Below are positions 2,736 through 9,971 of a stretch of 10,794 nt of DNA, piece by piece. The stretch comes from Burkholderiales bacterium (GTDB lineage Bacteria > Pseudomonadota > Gammaproteobacteria > Burkholderiales > Burkholderiaceae_A): positions 1 to 10,794 of the forward strand of contig JAURCW010000024.1 in the NCBI GenBank assembly GCA_030828265.1. The letters are read 5' to 3'. Under the pieces are notes generated by a model. That model had not been told where the DNA came from and made no database searches. It saw nothing but the letters and a program-made list of their open reading frames with translations. The translations under genes and the position numbers were made by a program. Numbering within the stretch: the first letter of the stretch is position 1; each line of letters opens with the position of its first letter.

Positions 2736-4382
2736 TTGAACCACGACCAAATTCTTATTCTCGACTTCGGTTCTCAGCTCACCCAGCTTATCGCTCGGCG
2801 TTTGCGTGAGCTACATGTTTACTGCGAGGTGCACCCCTGTGACGTGACCGACGACTGGCTGAAGACTTACCTTCAAGCTCATTGCGTCAAAGGCATTGTG
2901 CTCTCGGGCAGCCATGCCAGCGCCTACGATGACCAGACCGATAAGGCGCCCGAGCTCGTCTTTCAGTGTGGCCTGCCCGTGCTGGGTATTTGTTACGGCA
3001 TGCAGACCATGGCTTTACAGCTTGGCGGGCGGGTTCAGGCCGGCGACCATCGAGAGTTTGGATCTGCCGACGTGCGGGCCCGGGGTCACACTCGCCTGCT
3101 CGAGGGCATTGCCGACTTCACCACGGCCGAGGGCCACGGCATGTTGAAGGTCTGGATGAGTCACGGCGATGGCGTGAGTGAGCTGCCTCCCGGCTTTCGT
3201 CTTATGGCCTCCACGGCAAGCTGCCCCATTGCAGGTATGGCCGATGACGACCGTGGGTACTATGGCCTGCAGTTTCATCCTGAGGTCACGCATACGATTC
3301 AAGGGCGAGCCATTTTGCAGCGGTTTGCCTCGGATATCTGCGCTGCTCGCCCCGACTGGATTATGAAGGACCATATTGACGAGGCTGTGGCCCGTATAAA
3401 GGCCCAGGTCGGTGAGCAAGGCGTTGTACTTGGGCTTTCGGGCGGTGTTGACTCCTCGGTAGCGGCAGCGCTTATTCACAAGGCCATTGGCAGCCAACTG
3501 GTCTGCGTGTTTGTGGACCACGGGCTTTTACGGCTTAACGAGGGCGACCAGGTCATGGCCATGTTCGAAGGCCGACTCCATGCCAAGGTGATTCGAGTCG
3601 ATGCCAAGCAGCGCTTCTTCTCTGCCCTTGAGGGCGTTCACGACCCCGAGGCCAAACGCAAGATTATTGGCGGGCTTTTTGTGGATGTGTTTATGGAGCA
3701 GGCCGACGCCTTAAAGAGCCAGGGCGCCTCCATCGCGTTTCTGGGTCAAGGGACCATCTACCCCGATGTCATTGAAAGCGGTGGTGCTAAGTCAAAAAAG
3801 GCCGTGACCATCAAGAGTCATCACAACGTGGGTGGGCTGCCAGAAAAGCTTGGTCTGAAACTACTGGAACCGCTACGCGATCTCTTTAAAGACGAGGTGC
3901 GAGAGCTTGGAGTTGCGCTGGGCCTTCCCCGTGACATGGTCTATCGCCACCCCTTCCCCGGACCCGGCTTGGGTGTGCGTATTTTAGGAGCCATCGATCC
4001 CAGGCACGTGCCCTTGCTGCAGCAGGCTGATGCCATCTTCATCGAAACCCTTCGCTCTACGCTAGCGACCGAGAAAGATCTTCAACAGGGTCTTTGCTCG
4101 GCGGACGACCTGGGCAAGACCTGGTATGACCTAACAAGCCAGGCCTTTGCCGTCTTTCTTCCCGTAAAGTCCGTGGGCGTCATGGGTGATGGCCGCACCT
4201 ACGAGTACGTGGTGGCCTTGCGTGCGGTGGTGACATCGGACTTCATGACCGCCCACTGGGCCGAACTTCCTCACAGCCTTTTAGCCAACGTATCGAATCG
4301 CATCATTAATGAGATTCGCGGCATCAATCGCGTCGTTTACGATATTTCCGGAAAGCCCCCTGCCACCATTGAGTGGGAGTAG
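2736..4382 (+). CDS. guaA: GMP synthase (glutamine-hydrolysing)
   Basis: GuaA converts XMP to GMP using glutamine and ATP. All three domains are visible. The class I glutamine amidotransferase occupies residues 1 to about 205, with nucleophile Cys86 in GICYGMQ and His181/Glu183 in QFHPEV. The ATP-pyrophosphatase follows, with P-loop SGGVDSS at 235-241 and [13 protein letters not shown]. The C-terminal dimerisation domain ends KPPATIEWE, the conserved terminus that closes over XMP. At 548 residues it is slightly longer than the E. coli enzyme (525), as in other Burkholderiales from memory. The start is TTG, 2 nt after the guaB stop. No in-frame ATG exists before the catalytic region, and [14 protein letters not shown] aligns with the family N-terminus. 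It is probably translated by coupling to guaB. The gene is convergent with the lpxL-like gene, 6 bp apart. Confidence 0.95.
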
Positions 4383-4388
4383 CTAGCC

Positions 4389-5312
4389 TTACTTTCGACG
4401 CCGCTTGGGGGGATAGACAGGCTCGAGGCCCTCGGGCCGAGTTTTGAAACGACGATGCGCCCAGAGGTATTGATCGGGGGCCTCTCCAATACGCGCCTCA
4501 ATGAAGGCATGGATTCGTTCCAGGCCCTGCGCAAGGCTCTCTTCCTTCGGGAATAACAAAGGCTCGTAGAACCTTGCCCGATAACCCCGGGGTGTAAGCA
4601 GCGTCACCATTGGAAGAACGGTTGCATTTGTTAGGTGGGCAAGCCTGATGATGCTGGGCTGGGTAGCCGCAGGGACACCGAAGAAAGGAACAAACTCGGC
4701 CCCTCGGGGGCCAAGATCCATGTCGGGTGAAAAATGGGCTGTGACGCCCCTCTTTAATGCTCTCACCAACGGCCCAATGCCCTCGCGCCGCGAGATAAGC
4801 ATCGGCTGATTAAAACGGCTTCGGCCCTTATAGATCCATGCATCAATGGCTGGAAGTGCCTGGTTGGAGTAAAGACAGACAAGCTGATCCTCAAGCTGCA
4901 GTCGAGCCCCACCGGCGTCAAGTCCAATGAAGTGAGGCGCGAAGACAATCACCGGTCGACCCTCCTTTCGAAAGGTCTCTTTCGCATTCTCGAAAAATTC
5001 GAGGTTTTCTAATTCAACTAATTGTTTTAACGCAACTTTGTCGACTCGCCATAACTGAAATAAATCGAAAAAGGCACGCGTAACATTACGAAAAAACCGG
5101 CGGGCCAGGGCCAGCTGTTGCGACTCAGTAAGGGCTGGAAAACACAGCGAGAGATTGCGCTTAACCACCAGGCGTCGGGGTGAGGCTAGCCAATACAGCA
5201 GGCCACCCAAGGGAGCCGAGAAAGCCTGTTGCACACCTCGAGGTAAATACGAGTAAAGGCCTCCAAGCCACAAGGAGCCCTTCACAACCGAATTGACAAG
5301 TGCACGCGACAT
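4389..5312 (-). CDS. LpxL/HtrB-family lipid A late acyltransferase
   Basis: This 307-residue protein belongs to the LpxL/LpxM (HtrB/MsbB) family, inner-membrane enzymes that add secondary acyl chains to Kdo2-lipid A from acyl-ACP. The catalytic HX4D motif is present: His127 and Asp132 in APHFIGLDAG. Other family marks are RNLSLCFP near residue 52, FNQPMLISRREG, the PDMDLGPRG and FVPFFGVPAAT segments, and the terminal YLWAHRRFKTRPEG. The N-terminal 45 residues are hydrophobic and would form the membrane anchor. A very basic tail (PPKRRRK) ends the protein. The style, with FVPFFGVPAAT, is that of Burkholderiales homologues. Whether it adds a C12, C14 or other chain, and to which position, cannot be read from sequence, so no LpxL/LpxM symbol is given. 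It is divergent from lpxA (59 bp) and has no Shine-Dalgarno. Confidence 0.88.
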   Translation of the reverse strand: MSRALVNSVVKGSLWLGGLYSYLPRGVQQAFSAPLGGLLYWLASPRRLVVKRNLSLCFPALTESQQLALARRFFRNVTRAFFDLFQLWRVDKVALKQLVELENLEFFENAKETFRKEGRPVIVFAPHFIGLDAGGARLQLEDQLVCLYSNQALPAIDAWIYKGRSRFNQPMLISRREGIGPLVRALKRGVTAHFSPDMDLGPRGAEFVPFFGVPAATQPSIIRLAHLTNATVLPMVTLLTPRGYRARFYEPLLFPKEESLAQGLERIHAFIEARIGEAPDQYLWAHRRFKTRPEGLEPVYPPKRRRK

Positions 5313-5360
5313 GGGCCGAAGTTAGCCTAAGCCCCTGGGGTATGATCGGGCGTCACTTTT

Positions 5361-5366
5361 TAGAAT
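5361..5366 (+). promoter_or_regulatory. Candidate -10 box placing the lpxA start at the mRNA 5' end
   Basis: TAGAAT at 5361-5366 ends 5 nt before the lpxA ATG at 5372. It is the same hexamer and nearly the same spacing as at guaB. I cannot find a convincing -35 box 16-19 bp upstream. There is no Shine-Dalgarno before the ATG. The 59-bp gap shared with the divergent lpxL-like gene must hold the promoters of both, unless they begin inside coding DNA. Confidence 0.35.
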
Positions 5367-5371
5367 AAACA

Positions 5372-6160
5372 ATGATTCACCCACTCGCTCAAGTTTCTCC
5401 AGAAGCCTCATTGGCTGACGATGTAAAGGTTGACGCCTTTGCCGTCATCGGTCCTAACGTAAAAATTGGTAAGGGCTCGTGGATTGCGTCGCACGCGGTT
5501 ATTGCCGGGCCTTGTACGATTGGCGAGCACTGCCAAATCTACCCCTTTGTAAGCCTTGGCCAGCCACCCCAAGATCTTAGTTACAAGGACGAGCCTACCG
5601 AGCTTGTTATTGGCAACCACAACATCATTCGAGAGTCGGCCACGCTTCACCGTGGAACCGTGCGGGGTGGCGGTGTAACGCGTGTCGGTGACCATAATCT
5701 GATTATGGCGTATTGCCATATCGCCCATGACTGCAAAATTGGCAGCCACGTGATCTTCGCCAACAACGCATCACTGGCGGGGCATGTTCATATTGAAGAC
5801 GGTGTCACCCTAGGTGGCTTCACCCTTGTTCACCAGTTCTGCCGGGTCGGGGCTCATGGTTATACAAGTATGGGGGCAGCCCTTAACCGCGACCTTACCC
5901 CTTTCACACTGGCCACGGGCAACTATGCAAGAGCCATCGGCATTAACAAGGTAGGCCTTCAGCGTAGGGGCATCGCGGCCGATGTTATTCAGGGGCTTGA
6001 GAAGGTTTTTCGCCTGCTTGTGCATCGACGTGGCCATCGCACCGATGAACCAGAGGTCATCGAGCTTCGCGGCCGTTATGGCGAGGTCGATCGCTTCGTA
6101 GAGTTCATTGAAGGAAGTAAGCGCGGCATTATTCGTACGGGCCGCGCGGCGGCTGAATAA
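5372..6160 (+). CDS. lpxA: UDP-N-acetylglucosamine (or 3-amino analogue) acyltransferase LpxA
   Basis: LpxA transfers a 3-hydroxyacyl chain from ACP to position 3 of the UDP-sugar, the first step of lipid A synthesis in the cytoplasm. The 262-residue protein begins directly with the left-handed beta-helix hexapeptide repeats (residues 1 to about 190) and ends with the helical ACP-binding domain. The catalytic pair is His116 and His119 in CHIAHDC, equivalent to E. coli His122 and His125. The UDP-sugar site segments PQDLSYKDEPT and IRESATLHRGTVRGGG are kept. Position 167, equivalent to ruler residue Gly173 of E. coli, is Met, which in Pseudomonas aeruginosa limits the chain to C10. The lpxD-fabZ neighbours usual in this position are absent. 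With gnnA/gnnB next door its sugar may be UDP-GlcNAc3N. The end overlaps convergent lpxB by 32 bp. Confidence 0.94.
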   Translation: MIHPLAQVSPEASLADDVKVDAFAVIGPNVKIGKGSWIASHAVIAGPCTIGEHCQIYPFVSLGQPPQDLSYKDEPTELVIGNHNIIRESATLHRGTVRGGGVTRVGDHNLIMAYCHIAHDCKIGSHVIFANNASLAGHVHIEDGVTLGGFTLVHQFCRVGAHGYTSMGAALNRDLTPFTLATGNYARAIGINKVGLQRRGIAADVIQGLEKVFRLLVHRRGHRTDEPEVIELRGRYGEVDRFVEFIEGSKRGIIRTGRAAAE

Positions 6161-7295
6161 GCTCGAGCACCCAGTCTGCCAGACGATCCGAGGCCCCGCC
6201 CTCTCCCAGGCTGTTCCTCACTTCAGACAGCGCTTGAACCATCGAACGACGATAGGCCTGATCAAATAAGAGGCGCTGCGTTTCTTCGCGAAGATTGTGT
6301 AGCGTGAATGAGGACTGAATAAGCTCCTGAATAATTCGGCGACCGGCCACGATGTTCACCAGTGCAATGTCTTTCACATGCACGAACATACGAAGAAGCC
6401 CATAGCTAAGCCAGCTAAGCCTGTAGATAACTACCATAGGAATTTTTAGCAGCCCTGCCTCAAGGGTCGCGGTTCCCGAGGCCACCACAAGTGCATCGCA
6501 ACTCGCCATCAAGTCCACCGAGCGGCCCTTCACCCAACGAATACCGGGATGTCGGCGGGCCTGCTCTTTCTCATCAATATCGAGTCCGGAGGCAATCGAG
6601 ACCACGGGCTGAACGCCCTCGGCCAGCATCTGCTCGGCCAGCCGCACCAGTGTTGGCATGTGGCGACGCCACTCCGACTCTCGTGAGCCCGGGAAAAGAC
6701 CCAGAATGGGCGTGCCCTTAGCCAAGCCAAAAGACTCGCGAAGCTGCGCCGTTGGACCCGATGCCCTAACATCATCCACCAGTGGATTGCCCACAAATCG
6801 TACCGGTATGCCAACCGCCTGGTAATACGACACCTCAAAAGGAAACAAAACGGCCATGCCATCAATGCGGCCCACCATCCGGTGAATACGACTTGGCCGC
6901 CAGGCCCAGAGTTGAGGGCTTACATAGAACAAAACTTTTAACCCAAGTGACTTCGCGTAGTCAGCAAGCCGCAAATTAAACTCGGCATAGTCGACAAGAA
7001 TAAGAAGGTCAGGCCGCTCGTCGGCAAGCAGGCGCTTCATACGCTCAAGCACCGCCCGAAGGGTACGGTAGTGCCAAAGGGCCTCCAATATACCCACAAC
7101 GGAAAGCCCTGCGTAATCCTGTTCAATATGCACACCTGCCGCCCGCATGGCCGGGCCACCCATTCCAAAAAAAGAAAGACGGCCGCTCTTCTTCTGAACC
7201 GCACTCACCAAATCCGCTGCAAGCCGGTCGCCTGAAGCCTCCCCCGCAACAACAGCAATTCGGACCGATTGGGTATCGCGAGGATTACAACTCAT
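6129..7295 (-). CDS. lpxB: Lipid A disaccharide synthase LpxB
   Basis: LpxB joins UDP-2,3-diacylglucosamine to lipid X to form the lipid A disaccharide, as a peripheral inner-membrane GT19 glycosyltransferase. The 388 residues carry the family marks in order: GEASGD (18-23), GMGG (44-47), the VD pair around Asp102, SPQLWAW (126-132), FPFE (151-154), PGSRESE (202-208) and ASGTATLE (272-279). Length is normal. The segments VDYAEFN, SPQLWAW and FVGNPLVD differ from the VDAPDFN, SPSVWAW and VGHPLAD I expect in E. coli and most betaproteobacteria, so this may be a different LpxB lineage. It is the last gene of a minus-strand operon, 45 bp after gnnB. The ATG has a GAGGG Shine-Dalgarno 4 nt upstream, within a 12-bp palindrome. 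Its 3' end overlaps lpxA, on the opposite strand. Confidence 0.94.
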   Translation of the reverse strand: MSCNPRDTQSVRIAVVAGEASGDRLAADLVSAVQKKSGRLSFFGMGGPAMRAAGVHIEQDYAGLSVVGILEALWHYRTLRAVLERMKRLLADERPDLLILVDYAEFNLRLADYAKSLGLKVLFYVSPQLWAWRPSRIHRMVGRIDGMAVLFPFEVSYYQAVGIPVRFVGNPLVDDVRASGPTAQLRESFGLAKGTPILGLFPGSRESEWRRHMPTLVRLAEQMLAEGVQPVVSIASGLDIDEKEQARRHPGIRWVKGRSVDLMASCDALVVASGTATLEAGLLKIPMVVIYRLSWLSYGLLRMFVHVKDIALVNIVAGRRIIQELIQSSFTLHNLREETQRLLFDQAYRRSMVQALSEVRNSLGEGGASDRLADWVLELIQPPRGPYE

Positions 7296-7300
7296 GCCGC

Positions 7301-7312
7301 CCTCTTAAGAGG
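7301..7312. repeat. 12-bp perfect palindrome over the lpxB ribosome binding site
   Basis: CCTCTTAAGAGG reads the same on both strands. In the lpxB mRNA its right arm supplies the GAGG of the Shine-Dalgarno, and its left arm, CCTC, could pair with it around a TTAA loop. A 4-bp stem is weak. This may be chance, a modest brake on lpxB translation, or a protein site. Confidence 0.3.
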
Positions 7313-7340
7313 ACGCCAGGCCATGAATGGAGAATGGTGA

Positions 7341-8438
7341 CTATGACCGCAGGGCATCCCGAACCGCTGCAGCGACCTCATCAACCTGATCATTGGTCAT
7401 CTCAGGGTAGATCGGTAAAGACAGACAACGCTGGCTCACCGACTCGGCCACGGGCAGGCTAAGGCTGGAAAAGCGATCGCCAAAAGCCTTTTGTCGATGC
7501 AGAGGCACCGGGTAATAGACTGCGCTGGCGATCTTCTTATCGGTTAAAAAAGCCGAGATTTGTTCGCGATGATCGGTAAGGATGGTGTACTGGTGAAAGA
7601 CATGCCGACCAATACCATCTTCAAAGGGCGTTGTTACTGGGAGCCCCTGCAGCTTCTCGTTGTAGCGATGGGCTACGCGTCGTCGCTCGGTATTAAACCG
7701 CTCAATATGCTTAAGCTTCACACGAAGAATGGCAGCCTGCAGCTCATCAAGACGGCTGTTGTAGCCAATCACATCGTGGTAATACCGCACATGGCTTCCA
7801 TGGTTACGCAGGGCAAGCAGCTCTTGCTTGTGGGCATCGGTGAGAGTGGTTACAGCACCACCGTCGCCATAACCACCCAGGTTTTTACTTGGGAAGAAGC
7901 TAAAGCAGCCCATAACGCCAAAGCCGCCGGTGGGCTTACCACCCACTGTTGCGCCAAACGACTGCGCACAGTCTTCAATCAGGTAAAGATTGTCTTTGCA
8001 GCAGGCCTCCATAAGCCCATGAACATCAGCAGGCTGGCCAAACAAGTGAACTGCAATCACTGCCTTGGTCTTGGGGGTAACGGCGCCACGTACTTGAGCA
8101 AGATCAAGGTTAAAGGTCTTTGCATCGATATCAACAAACACGGGGGTTGCCCCCACGTAGGCAATGGCCTCGGCCGTTGCGATGAAGGTAAAAGGCGTTG
8201 TAATAACTTCGTCGCCTGGGCCAATGCCTAAAGCAGCCAGTGCCAAATGCAGGGCATCGGTTCCCGATGCGCAGCTAACGACATGGGGAACCGCTAAGCT
8301 TTGGCTCACCTCTTCTTCGAGCTGCCTGACGTTGGGCCCAAGAATGAACTGCGTTGCATCCAGGGCATCAAGCACAGCTTTATCAATGTCCGCCTTTAGA
8401 GAGTGGTACTGCGTACGCAGGTCAACCATGGGTATCAA
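7341..8438 (-). CDS. gnnB: DegT/DnrJ/EryC1-family PLP aminotransferase, probable GnnB
   Basis: This is a type I PLP sugar aminotransferase of 365 residues. The PLP lysine is Lys185 in FFPSKNLGGYGDGG. The phosphate-binding SGTDAL is at 58-63, the ring-stacking and pyridine-binding region has EDCAQSFGA (Asp156), and NHGSH and GYNSRLDELQAA follow in the usual order. Such enzymes convert a ketosugar nucleotide to an aminosugar using glutamate. In A. ferrooxidans GnnB aminates UDP-3-keto-GlcNAc made by GnnA, giving UDP-GlcNAc3N for LpxA. Position 14 bp after the oxidoreductase gene and 45 bp before lpxB supports this role. WbpE-type enzymes of O-antigen synthesis are very similar, and only context separates them. 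The start is TTG, since AAAAGGA lies 9 nt upstream; the ATG three codons later would be 18 nt away. Confidence 0.8.
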   Translation of the reverse strand: MIPMVDLRTQYHSLKADIDKAVLDALDATQFILGPNVRQLEEEVSQSLAVPHVVSCASGTDALHLALAALGIGPGDEVITTPFTFIATAEAIAYVGATPVFVDIDAKTFNLDLAQVRGAVTPKTKAVIAVHLFGQPADVHGLMEACCKDNLYLIEDCAQSFGATVGGKPTGGFGVMGCFSFFPSKNLGGYGDGGAVTTLTDAHKQELLALRNHGSHVRYYHDVIGYNSRLDELQAAILRVKLKHIERFNTERRRVAHRYNEKLQGLPVTTPFEDGIGRHVFHQYTILTDHREQISAFLTDKKIASAVYYPVPLHRQKAFGDRFSSLSLPVAESVSQRCLSLPIYPEMTNDQVDEVAAAVRDALRS

Positions 8439-8447
8439 GATAAACAG

Positions 8448-8454
8448 TCCTTTT
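8448..8454 (-). promoter_or_regulatory. Shine-Dalgarno sequence fixing the TTG start of gnnB
   Basis: AAAAGGA on the minus strand overlaps the stop codon of the upstream oxidoreductase gene (8453-8455) and lies 9 nt before TTG at 8438. This suggests coupled translation of the two genes and favours the TTG over the in-frame ATG at 8429. Confidence 0.5.
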
Positions 8455-9433
8455 AAAGTGAACGGTCAAGGGGTTGGTCGAGACTGGTGGGGCCCTGATG
8501 CACCAGTTCGGTAATACGTATGGCGGTTTCAAGGGCACGCTGACCATCAAGGCCTGAAACGATCACCGGGCCCTCGCCTCGCACGGCGGCAACAAAGGCT
8601 TGAATTTCTGTCAGCAAGGCATCGGCCGACTCAAACGAGGTTTCCTCGCTCACAATTTCTGGAATGCCCGGGTAGAGTTCACGCTCTCCCCGACGATGAA
8701 GACCAAACCGACGCTCTTGGAAATCAATGGTCAGATAAGACTGATGGGCGAAGATCCGCATCTTGCGCTCGGTTTTGTGGCTCACACGGCTTGAAGTGAC
8801 ATTGGCCACGCAGCCATTGGCAAACTCAAGTCGTGCATTGGCAATATCGATAGTCTCCGACAGAATTTTTGCACCGCTTGCAGAAATACGTGCAATGTCC
8901 GAGCCCACCATATTCAGAATAATGTCCACATCGTGAATCATGAGATCAAGCACAACATTCACATCAGCTCCCCGGGGCTTATAGGGTGCAAGCCGATGGG
9001 ACTCAATGAATAAGGGCGAAATCGACTGCCCTGTCACCGCCATGAGCGCAGGGTTAAACCGCTCCAAGTGCCCAATTTGCAAAATGGCACCCGTGGACTG
9101 CGCAATAGCGTTAAGCTCTTTTGCCTCTTCAACAGTGACCGTCATGGGCTTTTCTAAAAGAACGTGAATGCCTCGCTCAAGAAAGGGCTTGGCCGTTGAA
9201 AAGTGCAGCTGGGTGGGTACCACCACACTCACCAAGTCAACTTCATTAAATAGGGCAGTCACATCGGTAAGAGGCTTGCAGCCCTGAAATTCACTGGCAA
9301 CAGCCTGAGCCCGATCGCGATCGGCATCCACAACGGCCACAAGATTAAGGCCCGAAAGCTGGGCGTACTTTTGAGCATGAAACCGCCCAAGGTAACCCAC
9401 ACCTACAACCGCTGCACGTAAAGGTTTGGTCAT
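8453..9433 (-). CDS. gnnA: Gfo/Idh/MocA-family NAD-dependent sugar-nucleotide oxidoreductase, probable GnnA
   Basis: The 326-residue protein has an N-terminal Rossmann domain with GVGYLGRFHA (11-20), an acidic end of beta-2 at VVDAD, and the EKP motif of this family at 94-96, where Lys95 is the catalytic lysine. The C-terminal sheet domain contains DLMIHDVD (163-170), with His167 the probable second catalytic residue. GHLERFNPA at 121-129 is typical of homologues that sit in lipid A gene clusters. GnnA oxidises the 3-hydroxyl of UDP-GlcNAc to a ketone, which GnnB then aminates. It is the first gene of a tight gnnA-gnnB-lpxB operon. The closest alternative is a WbpB-like enzyme acting on UDP-GlcNAcA, but no UDP-GlcNAc dehydrogenase or acetyltransferase partner is present here. 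No Shine-Dalgarno or clear promoter is visible in the 49 bp shared with divergent tadA. Confidence 0.8.
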   Translation of the reverse strand: MTKPLRAAVVGVGYLGRFHAQKYAQLSGLNLVAVVDADRDRAQAVASEFQGCKPLTDVTALFNEVDLVSVVVPTQLHFSTAKPFLERGIHVLLEKPMTVTVEEAKELNAIAQSTGAILQIGHLERFNPALMAVTGQSISPLFIESHRLAPYKPRGADVNVVLDLMIHDVDIILNMVGSDIARISASGAKILSETIDIANARLEFANGCVANVTSSRVSHKTERKMRIFAHQSYLTIDFQERRFGLHRRGERELYPGIPEIVSEETSFESADALLTEIQAFVAAVRGEGPVIVSGLDGQRALETAIRITELVHQGPTSLDQPLDRSL

Positions 9434-9446
9434 GGGGCTAGCGATT

Positions 9447-9971
<525 letters not shown>

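Follow-up and report, generated by a model that had tools for sequence, protein, structure and literature searches.

How two genes for making an amino sugar came to stand among the lipid A genes of a betaproteobacterium, and what they do there, is the question raised by the DNA analysed here, a window of 10,794 nucleotides that is contig C168 of a draft Burkholderiales genome (G000; 1.3 Mb, 76% complete). The cluster at issue, lpxL-lpxA-lpxB-gnnB-gnnA, occupies positions 4389-9433 of the window, between guaA and tadA. A preliminary description had recognized gnnA and gnnB beside lpxB and lpxA, and had proposed a diamino-sugar lipid A with amide-linked chains at positions 3 and 3'. That interpretation is supported on gene evidence (the sequence and fold of GnnA and a tree of GnnB), the lipid A structure being a prediction. 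We further consider it probable (roughly 0.78 for the whole pathway and its history) that the cluster is a composite cassette for lipid A conversion and has displaced core genes, because its LpxA and LpxB are non-native and the native sites of lpxA, lpxB and the main lpxL stand empty in the genomes read. Pathways of this kind are already known; new here are a composite form that displaces core genes and its uneven presence within one genus.

The four genes of the preliminary description lie where it had placed them, with profile matches far above chance, and the gap between gnnA and gnnB is 14 bases as given there. The oxidoreductase of the Gfo/Idh/MocA family, a predicted UDP-N-acetylglucosamine (UDP-GlcNAc) 3-dehydrogenase, is encoded by gnnA (8453..9433, minus strand; GFO_IDH_MocA, 108.2 bits, cut-off 24) and carries the expected motifs EKP (residues 94-96) and HLERFNPA (from residue 122). 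Its partner gnnB (7341..8438, minus strand, TTG start; PF01041, 406.5 bits, cut-off 19.8) encodes a DegT-family pyridoxal phosphate aminotransferase with Lys185 within FPSKNLG, and ends 45 bases from lpxB (6129..7295, minus strand; TIGR00215, 252.8 bits, cut-off 190.25), a lipid A disaccharide synthase gene of the gnn-linked type. Convergent with lpxB, and sharing 32 bases with it at the 3' ends, is lpxA (5372..6160, plus strand; NF003657, 332.8 bits, cut-off 226), of the gnn-linked, non-native type, its product a predicted 3-N-acyltransferase of UDP-GlcNAc3N, the 3-amino sugar nucleotide. A fifth gene, lpxL (4389..5312, minus strand; PF03279, 169.6 bits), encodes a lipid A secondary acyltransferase of the type that we call lpxL-big and belongs to the same cluster, although it was absent from the earlier gene list.

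The identity of the pair was judged separately for each member. The top Protein Data Bank (PDB) match of the window GnnA, by sequence and by fold and over the full length, was the GnnA of Acidithiobacillus ferrooxidans (7bvj/7bvk), and the assignment rests on this comparison with a solved structure rather than on a GnnA tree, in which, according to a warning from the program, A. ferrooxidans GnnA joins other long branches. Pseudomonas WbpB/WbpE (WlbA in Bordetella) belong to the same enzyme families and act at C3 of a UDP sugar; WlbA, however, is only 18% identical to the window GnnA, its lower structural rank being a score difference only, in a fold common to the whole oxidoreductase family. 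For the aminotransferase, the preliminary description had held that grouping with WbpE would speak against its proposal; in our tree, which was built without QdtB and without the A. ferrooxidans GnnB, the window protein fell with most lpxB-linked GnnB, and WbpE and 8e75 formed a separate clade (support 100). On this gene evidence it is close to certain that gnnA and gnnB serve lipid A, and supply of UDP-GlcNAc3N to LpxA is their best-supported function. The GnnA/GnnB pathway of A. ferrooxidans was reportedly described by Sweet et al. in 2004. The enzymology of the two proteins in that species is treated as established in two papers (PMC3342949, PMC8036547).

The substrate and products that we infer for the cassette would fit together as follows. 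GnnA would oxidise the 3-OH of UDP-GlcNAc with nicotinamide adenine dinucleotide as acceptor, GnnB would transaminate the 3-ketone to UDP-GlcNAc3N, and the cassette LpxA, with a predicted preference for the amine, would load the first 3-hydroxyacyl chain onto it. LpxC would then deacetylate, LpxD N-acylate, LpxB join the halves and LpxL add the secondary chains, giving a lipid A with four amide-linked primary chains; amide links at both 3 and 3' are expected because one LpxA feeds both halves of the disaccharide. LpxC was identified in seven of the eight genomes tested, G000 among them, and LpxD is present in the carrier genomes G005 and G006 and was not found in the incomplete G000 genome. 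Methionine stands at the position of Escherichia coli Gly173 in the window LpxA, as in Pseudomonas aeruginosa, which hints at a short (C10-like) chain. Two other LpxA positions differ between gnn-linked and other proteins: at E. coli position 76 the residue is not lysine in 17 of 40 gnn-linked LpxA and in none of 36 others (serine in the window), and at position 200 it is not glutamate in 35 of 40 and in none of 36 (valine in the window). The others comprise 34 proteins from the order plus those of E. coli and P. aeruginosa, and outside the counts stand four rows, taken from two loci that each carry a pair of LpxA genes, and three more whose status was doubtful. Since these differences amount to only one to three phylogenetically independent pairs, the two positions were set aside as selectivity residues.

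That LpxA and LpxB came from outside the lineage is indicated both by identities and by trees. The genus of the window, g1, is represented by 11 genomes within a family of 26 that includes genera g2 and g3. The median identity of cassette LpxA to native g1 LpxA is 44%, as against 66% among native proteins, and the corresponding values for LpxB are 31% and 52%; in the same comparisons the control proteins gave 76% versus 84% (GuaA), 73% versus 75% (PpsR) and 84% versus 82% (PpsA). A tree of eight core proteins placed the window, G005 and G006 within g1 (100/99) as sister to G001 (100/99), the window row being only 27% filled. Cassette LpxA, in contrast to the native LpxA of g1 and g2, which nests among ordinary Burkholderiales LpxA, grouped with gnn-linked LpxA of g3 (96/87) and of gammaproteobacteria, and an approximately unbiased (AU) test on 44 of the 83 LpxA rows rejected cassette and native LpxA as one clade (p-AU 6.4e-9). 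Likewise, in a quick tree LpxB fell into two groups (support 100), one of ordinary Burkholderiales proteins and one gnn-linked, with cassette LpxB in the latter as sister to Thioalkalivibrio LpxB (97, same tree). The cassette LpxL, unlike its LpxA and LpxB, looks native to the lineage by sequence: it is of the type that other family members keep between metK and dapF, and it nests within the family as sister to that of G001 (99/97), though at only 45-49% identity to each other family LpxL outside the cassette.

The cassette is found in only part of the genus, and its presence coincides with empty native loci. Four of the 11 g1 genomes have gnnA (G000, G005, G006 and G007), with GnnA of the last three 92-96% identical to that of the window and the gnnA-gnnB-lpxB/lpxA order recurring there; no gnnA was found in the other seven, the nearest protein in G001 being an oxidoreductase of 26% identity (expect value, E, 1.8e-8). 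All seven g1 non-carriers have fabZ-lpxA-lpxB-rnhB, as do five of the six g2 non-carriers, the sixth (G013) reading lpxA-lpxB-rnhB up to the end of the stretch. In both carriers in which the native locus was read, G005 and G006, it is bamA-skp-lpxD-fabZ-rnhB: lpxA and lpxB are gone and their neighbours have closed up. Consistent with this loss, each of the four g1 carriers gave a single LpxB match, the cassette copy (G000 being 76% complete). The second locus tells the same story, since metK-lpxL-small-lpxL-big-dapF was present in all three non-carriers read (G002, G011, G023) and metK-lpxL-small-dapF, with no lpxL-big, in all three carriers read (G000, G005, G006). Displacement of lpxA, lpxB and lpxL in this lineage is thus well supported. 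We envisage that a gnnA-gnnB-lpxB/lpxA block of the type now seen in gammaproteobacteria entered the lineage between guaA and tadA, that the lineage's own lpxL joined it, and that the native lpxA, lpxB and main lpxL would then have been lost from their old loci.

A second genus carries a shorter version. In G017, which the core-protein tree places inside g2 as sister to G023 (99/98; G017 row 34% filled), lpxL-lpxA/gnnB-gnnA precedes tadA, without lpxB, and another contig reads lpxD-fabZ-lpxB-rnhB without lpxA. Identities to the window are 80% for GnnB, 76% for LpxA and 71% for GnnA, but only 59% for the adjacent TadA, which is 86% identical to TadA of the congener G023. The G017 LpxL fragment (152 residues, 54% identical to the window LpxL) groups with g1 cassette LpxL, and AU tests on two row sets ruled against placing it with g2 LpxL (p-AU 1e-4 and 7e-4). 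Because its cassette genes are nearer the window than its TadA is, and given the LpxL grouping, the direction of transfer that we infer is from a g1-like source to g2. Judging by its match, metK of G017 sits at the edge of a contig, and the metK-dapF site is therefore unreadable there. Movement between genera, which rests on this one draft genome, is somewhat favoured. If g2 again lost native lpxA and kept native lpxB, LpxA rather than LpxB would be the gate that has to match the new sugar. The broadest formulation, that one composite cassette with its own LpxA switches backbone chemistry within a genus, displaces three core genes from two native loci, is transferable between genera and has LpxA as its gate, we regard as evenly balanced.

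Several observations weigh against the conversion cassette as we have described it. The diamino lipid A is a prediction from genes, not a chemical observation. The donor signals conflict: the nearest outside kin of GnnB are Geobacteraceae, the GnnA and LpxB trees point to Thioalkalivibrio/Wenzhouxiangella, and the LpxA tree points to g3, yet g3 GnnA is not with cassette GnnA; because these four trees disagree, we name no donor. Foreign base composition was considered and gave no signal, guanine plus cytosine ranging from 52 to 57% within the cassette and from 54 to 59% in its flanks. The native lpxA/lpxB site of G000 was not located, as LpxD was unmatched in this 76% complete bin, so that the scar is known from the two sister species G005 and G006, where loss of lpxA was judged at the native site and not by a genome-wide LpxA search. 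Three of the four g1 carriers are drafts of 214 to 300 contigs. Lastly, contig C282 of G017 (L200 1-5790) holds a second, complete and ordinary bamA-skp-lpxD-fabZ-lpxA-lpxB set, the LpxB of which is 77% identical to that of G017 contig C10. This contig is probably contamination from another species in the bin (3% contamination estimated), and it makes the loss of native lpxA in G017 probable rather than proven. Faster evolution of LpxD in carriers was also considered, from a long branch in one tree, and dropped, as identities were only slightly low (50% versus 57%).

The most serious alternative accepts the supply of UDP-GlcNAc3N and supposes that LpxA takes UDP-GlcNAc too, so that lipid A is mixed or hybrid. 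Such backbones have been described in Campylobacter jejuni and Capnocytophaga (passages in PMC3342949 and PMC7956469), and the candidate LpxA selectivity residues are not validated, being confined to the one to three pairs noted above; against it, native lpxA has disappeared from its locus in G005 and G006, which would be expected were a single LpxA to make both sugars from one pool, and loci L079 and L084 hold two LpxA genes each, one of gnn type and one ordinary. We judge the hybrid a lesser though still substantial possibility. A history without transfer, in which the gnn-type lpx set is ancestral to the family and most lineages reverted to ordinary genes, draws on g3, where G012, G020 and G024 have bamA-skp-lpxD-fabZ-lpxA beside an inverted lpxB-gnnB-gnnA at the native locus and LpxA is sister to cassette LpxA. 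It appears unlikely, given that native g1 and g2 LpxA nests among ordinary Burkholderiales LpxA, that the cassette occupies a site other than the native one, and that the G017 cassette genes are nearer those of g1 than the G017 flank is.

Both enzyme families are generic in sugar-nucleotide metabolism, and WbpE was a strong PDB match (299.8 bits), so the pair could in principle make a 3-amino sugar for O-antigen or capsule, of WbpB/WbpE or QdtB type, and adjoin lpxB by chance. This is very improbable in view of the PDB match of GnnA, the separation of GnnB from WbpE, and the joint exchange of lpxA and gnnAB in two genera. Moreover, LpxB lies within the fetched stretch in 53 of the best 80 GnnA loci among the matches listed in a survey of named genomes, and no other strong DegT match occurs in G000, G006 or G017; where a second strong DegT protein occurs, it does so in the carriers G005 and G007 but also in the non-carrier G001, in copies about 29% identical to a family GnnB. 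A binning or assembly chimera is scarcely credible, even though the bins are drafts of 10-300 contigs and G017 has duplicate lpx contigs: within the genus, four species bins share the tadA-gnnA junction and three the lpxA-lpxL junction, and flanking genes place the bins in the expected genus.

The displacing cassette may be set beside systems that resemble it. In A. ferrooxidans gnnAB presumably lie between lpxA and lpxB; in the window, by contrast, lpxA is convergent, lpxL is included and the block is away from the native lpx locus. Thioalkalivibrio (L077, L080) shares the convergent gnnA-gnnB-lpxB/lpxA arrangement (GnnA 60%, LpxA 55%, LpxB 45-47% identical), but its block lies next to fabZ-lpxD-skp-bamA, where lpx genes usually are, with no lpxL in the stretch. 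Limnohabitans (L111, L112, L114), also of the Burkholderiales, has bamA-skp-lpxD-fabZ-lpxA-gnnA-gnnB-lpxB with LpxA and LpxB of ordinary Burkholderiales type, so that, unlike in the window, gnnAB joined native genes without replacement. The preliminary description had called the trait unusual for betaproteobacteria, and it is better termed uncommon but not unique, because, of 399 genomes sampled from Burkholderiales, 22 gave a GnnA match at E <= 1e-40 (17 of 345 of good quality) and because Limnohabitans isolates carry the lpxA-gnnA-gnnB-lpxB order. Within the family, gnnA occurs in eight of 26 genomes (E <= 1e-30). Seventeen of the 22 order loci were fetched at length: one (G253, Limnohabitans-like) has lpxA-gnnA-gnnB-lpxB, a gnnB-like gene adjoins gnnA in 12, and lpxL is near gnnA in 11, two of which have a second LpxA as well. 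In the open-licence PubMed Central literature, searched mostly by title and start of abstract, we found no report of lipid A with the diamino sugar GlcN3N in a betaproteobacterium and nothing on Limnohabitans lipid A; review passages on betaproteobacterial lipid A treat chain length (PMC7956469).

A given bacterial group is generally assumed to keep one lipid A backbone, and acyl chains held by amide bonds withstand alkali and esterases. Within this one genus, close relatives have different backbone genes, and the genes show a possible route of change, in which the sugar-making pair travels with a matching LpxA and the old copies vanish. It is thus a natural experiment on which enzymes of the lipid A pathway have to evolve along with the backbone: this seems to hold for LpxA, but seemingly not always for LpxB. 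Loss of gnnAB in C. jejuni is reported to raise TLR4 activation and sensitivity to antimicrobial peptides (PMC8036547), and for this reason, together with the resistance of amide chains, sister species may differ in the properties of their envelopes. One study of how lipid A genes evolved describes their duplication and loss, and its text contains neither 'horizontal' nor 'lateral' (PMC3087551).

Other arrangements of the same genes were encountered. Genomes from Rhodocyclales and elsewhere in the Burkholderiales order have gnnA, in many cases with gnnB, beside lpxL genes (L106 5488-10851, L221 5354-9990, L230 4009-8547 and other loci of L220-L232), and in L106, L107, L221 and L230 a second, divergent LpxA follows gnnA/lpxL, complete in L106 (319 bits, cut-off 226) and split in two in L230. 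Such an arrangement may represent another route to a hybrid lipid A backbone. The two LpxA genes of L079 (7228-8001 and 11966-12805; an Ectothiorhodospiraceae bin) and of L084 (14273-15043 and 15054-15824; Simiduia aestuariiviva) pair a gnn-type protein with Ser76 and a residue other than glutamate at 200 with an ordinary one with Lys76 and Glu200, a possible natural case of a hybrid backbone in a cultured strain. Among g3 genomes LpxB was unmatched in the drafts G014, G016 and G022 and had one match in each of the other five; G014 keeps LpxC and G016 shows none, so that either loss of the lipid A pathway or draft gaps could account for these genomes.

Outside the cassette, the left flank of the window is formed by guaA (2736..4382, plus strand; NF000848, 739.9 bits), 6 bases from lpxL, and ahead of it lie ratA-like, rnfH and guaB genes, named from their translations. 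The right flank is tadA (9483..9971, plus strand; NF008113, 203.3 bits), beyond which only the start of a gene for a periplasmic binding protein is included; its name comes from the G006 homologue. In G005 a HipA-like gene (L057 14990-16348) stands between lpxL and guaA at the cassette edge. In the window guaB (1271-2733) is read as two overlapping open frames with a frame break near 1720, which could be an assembly error or a real disruption.

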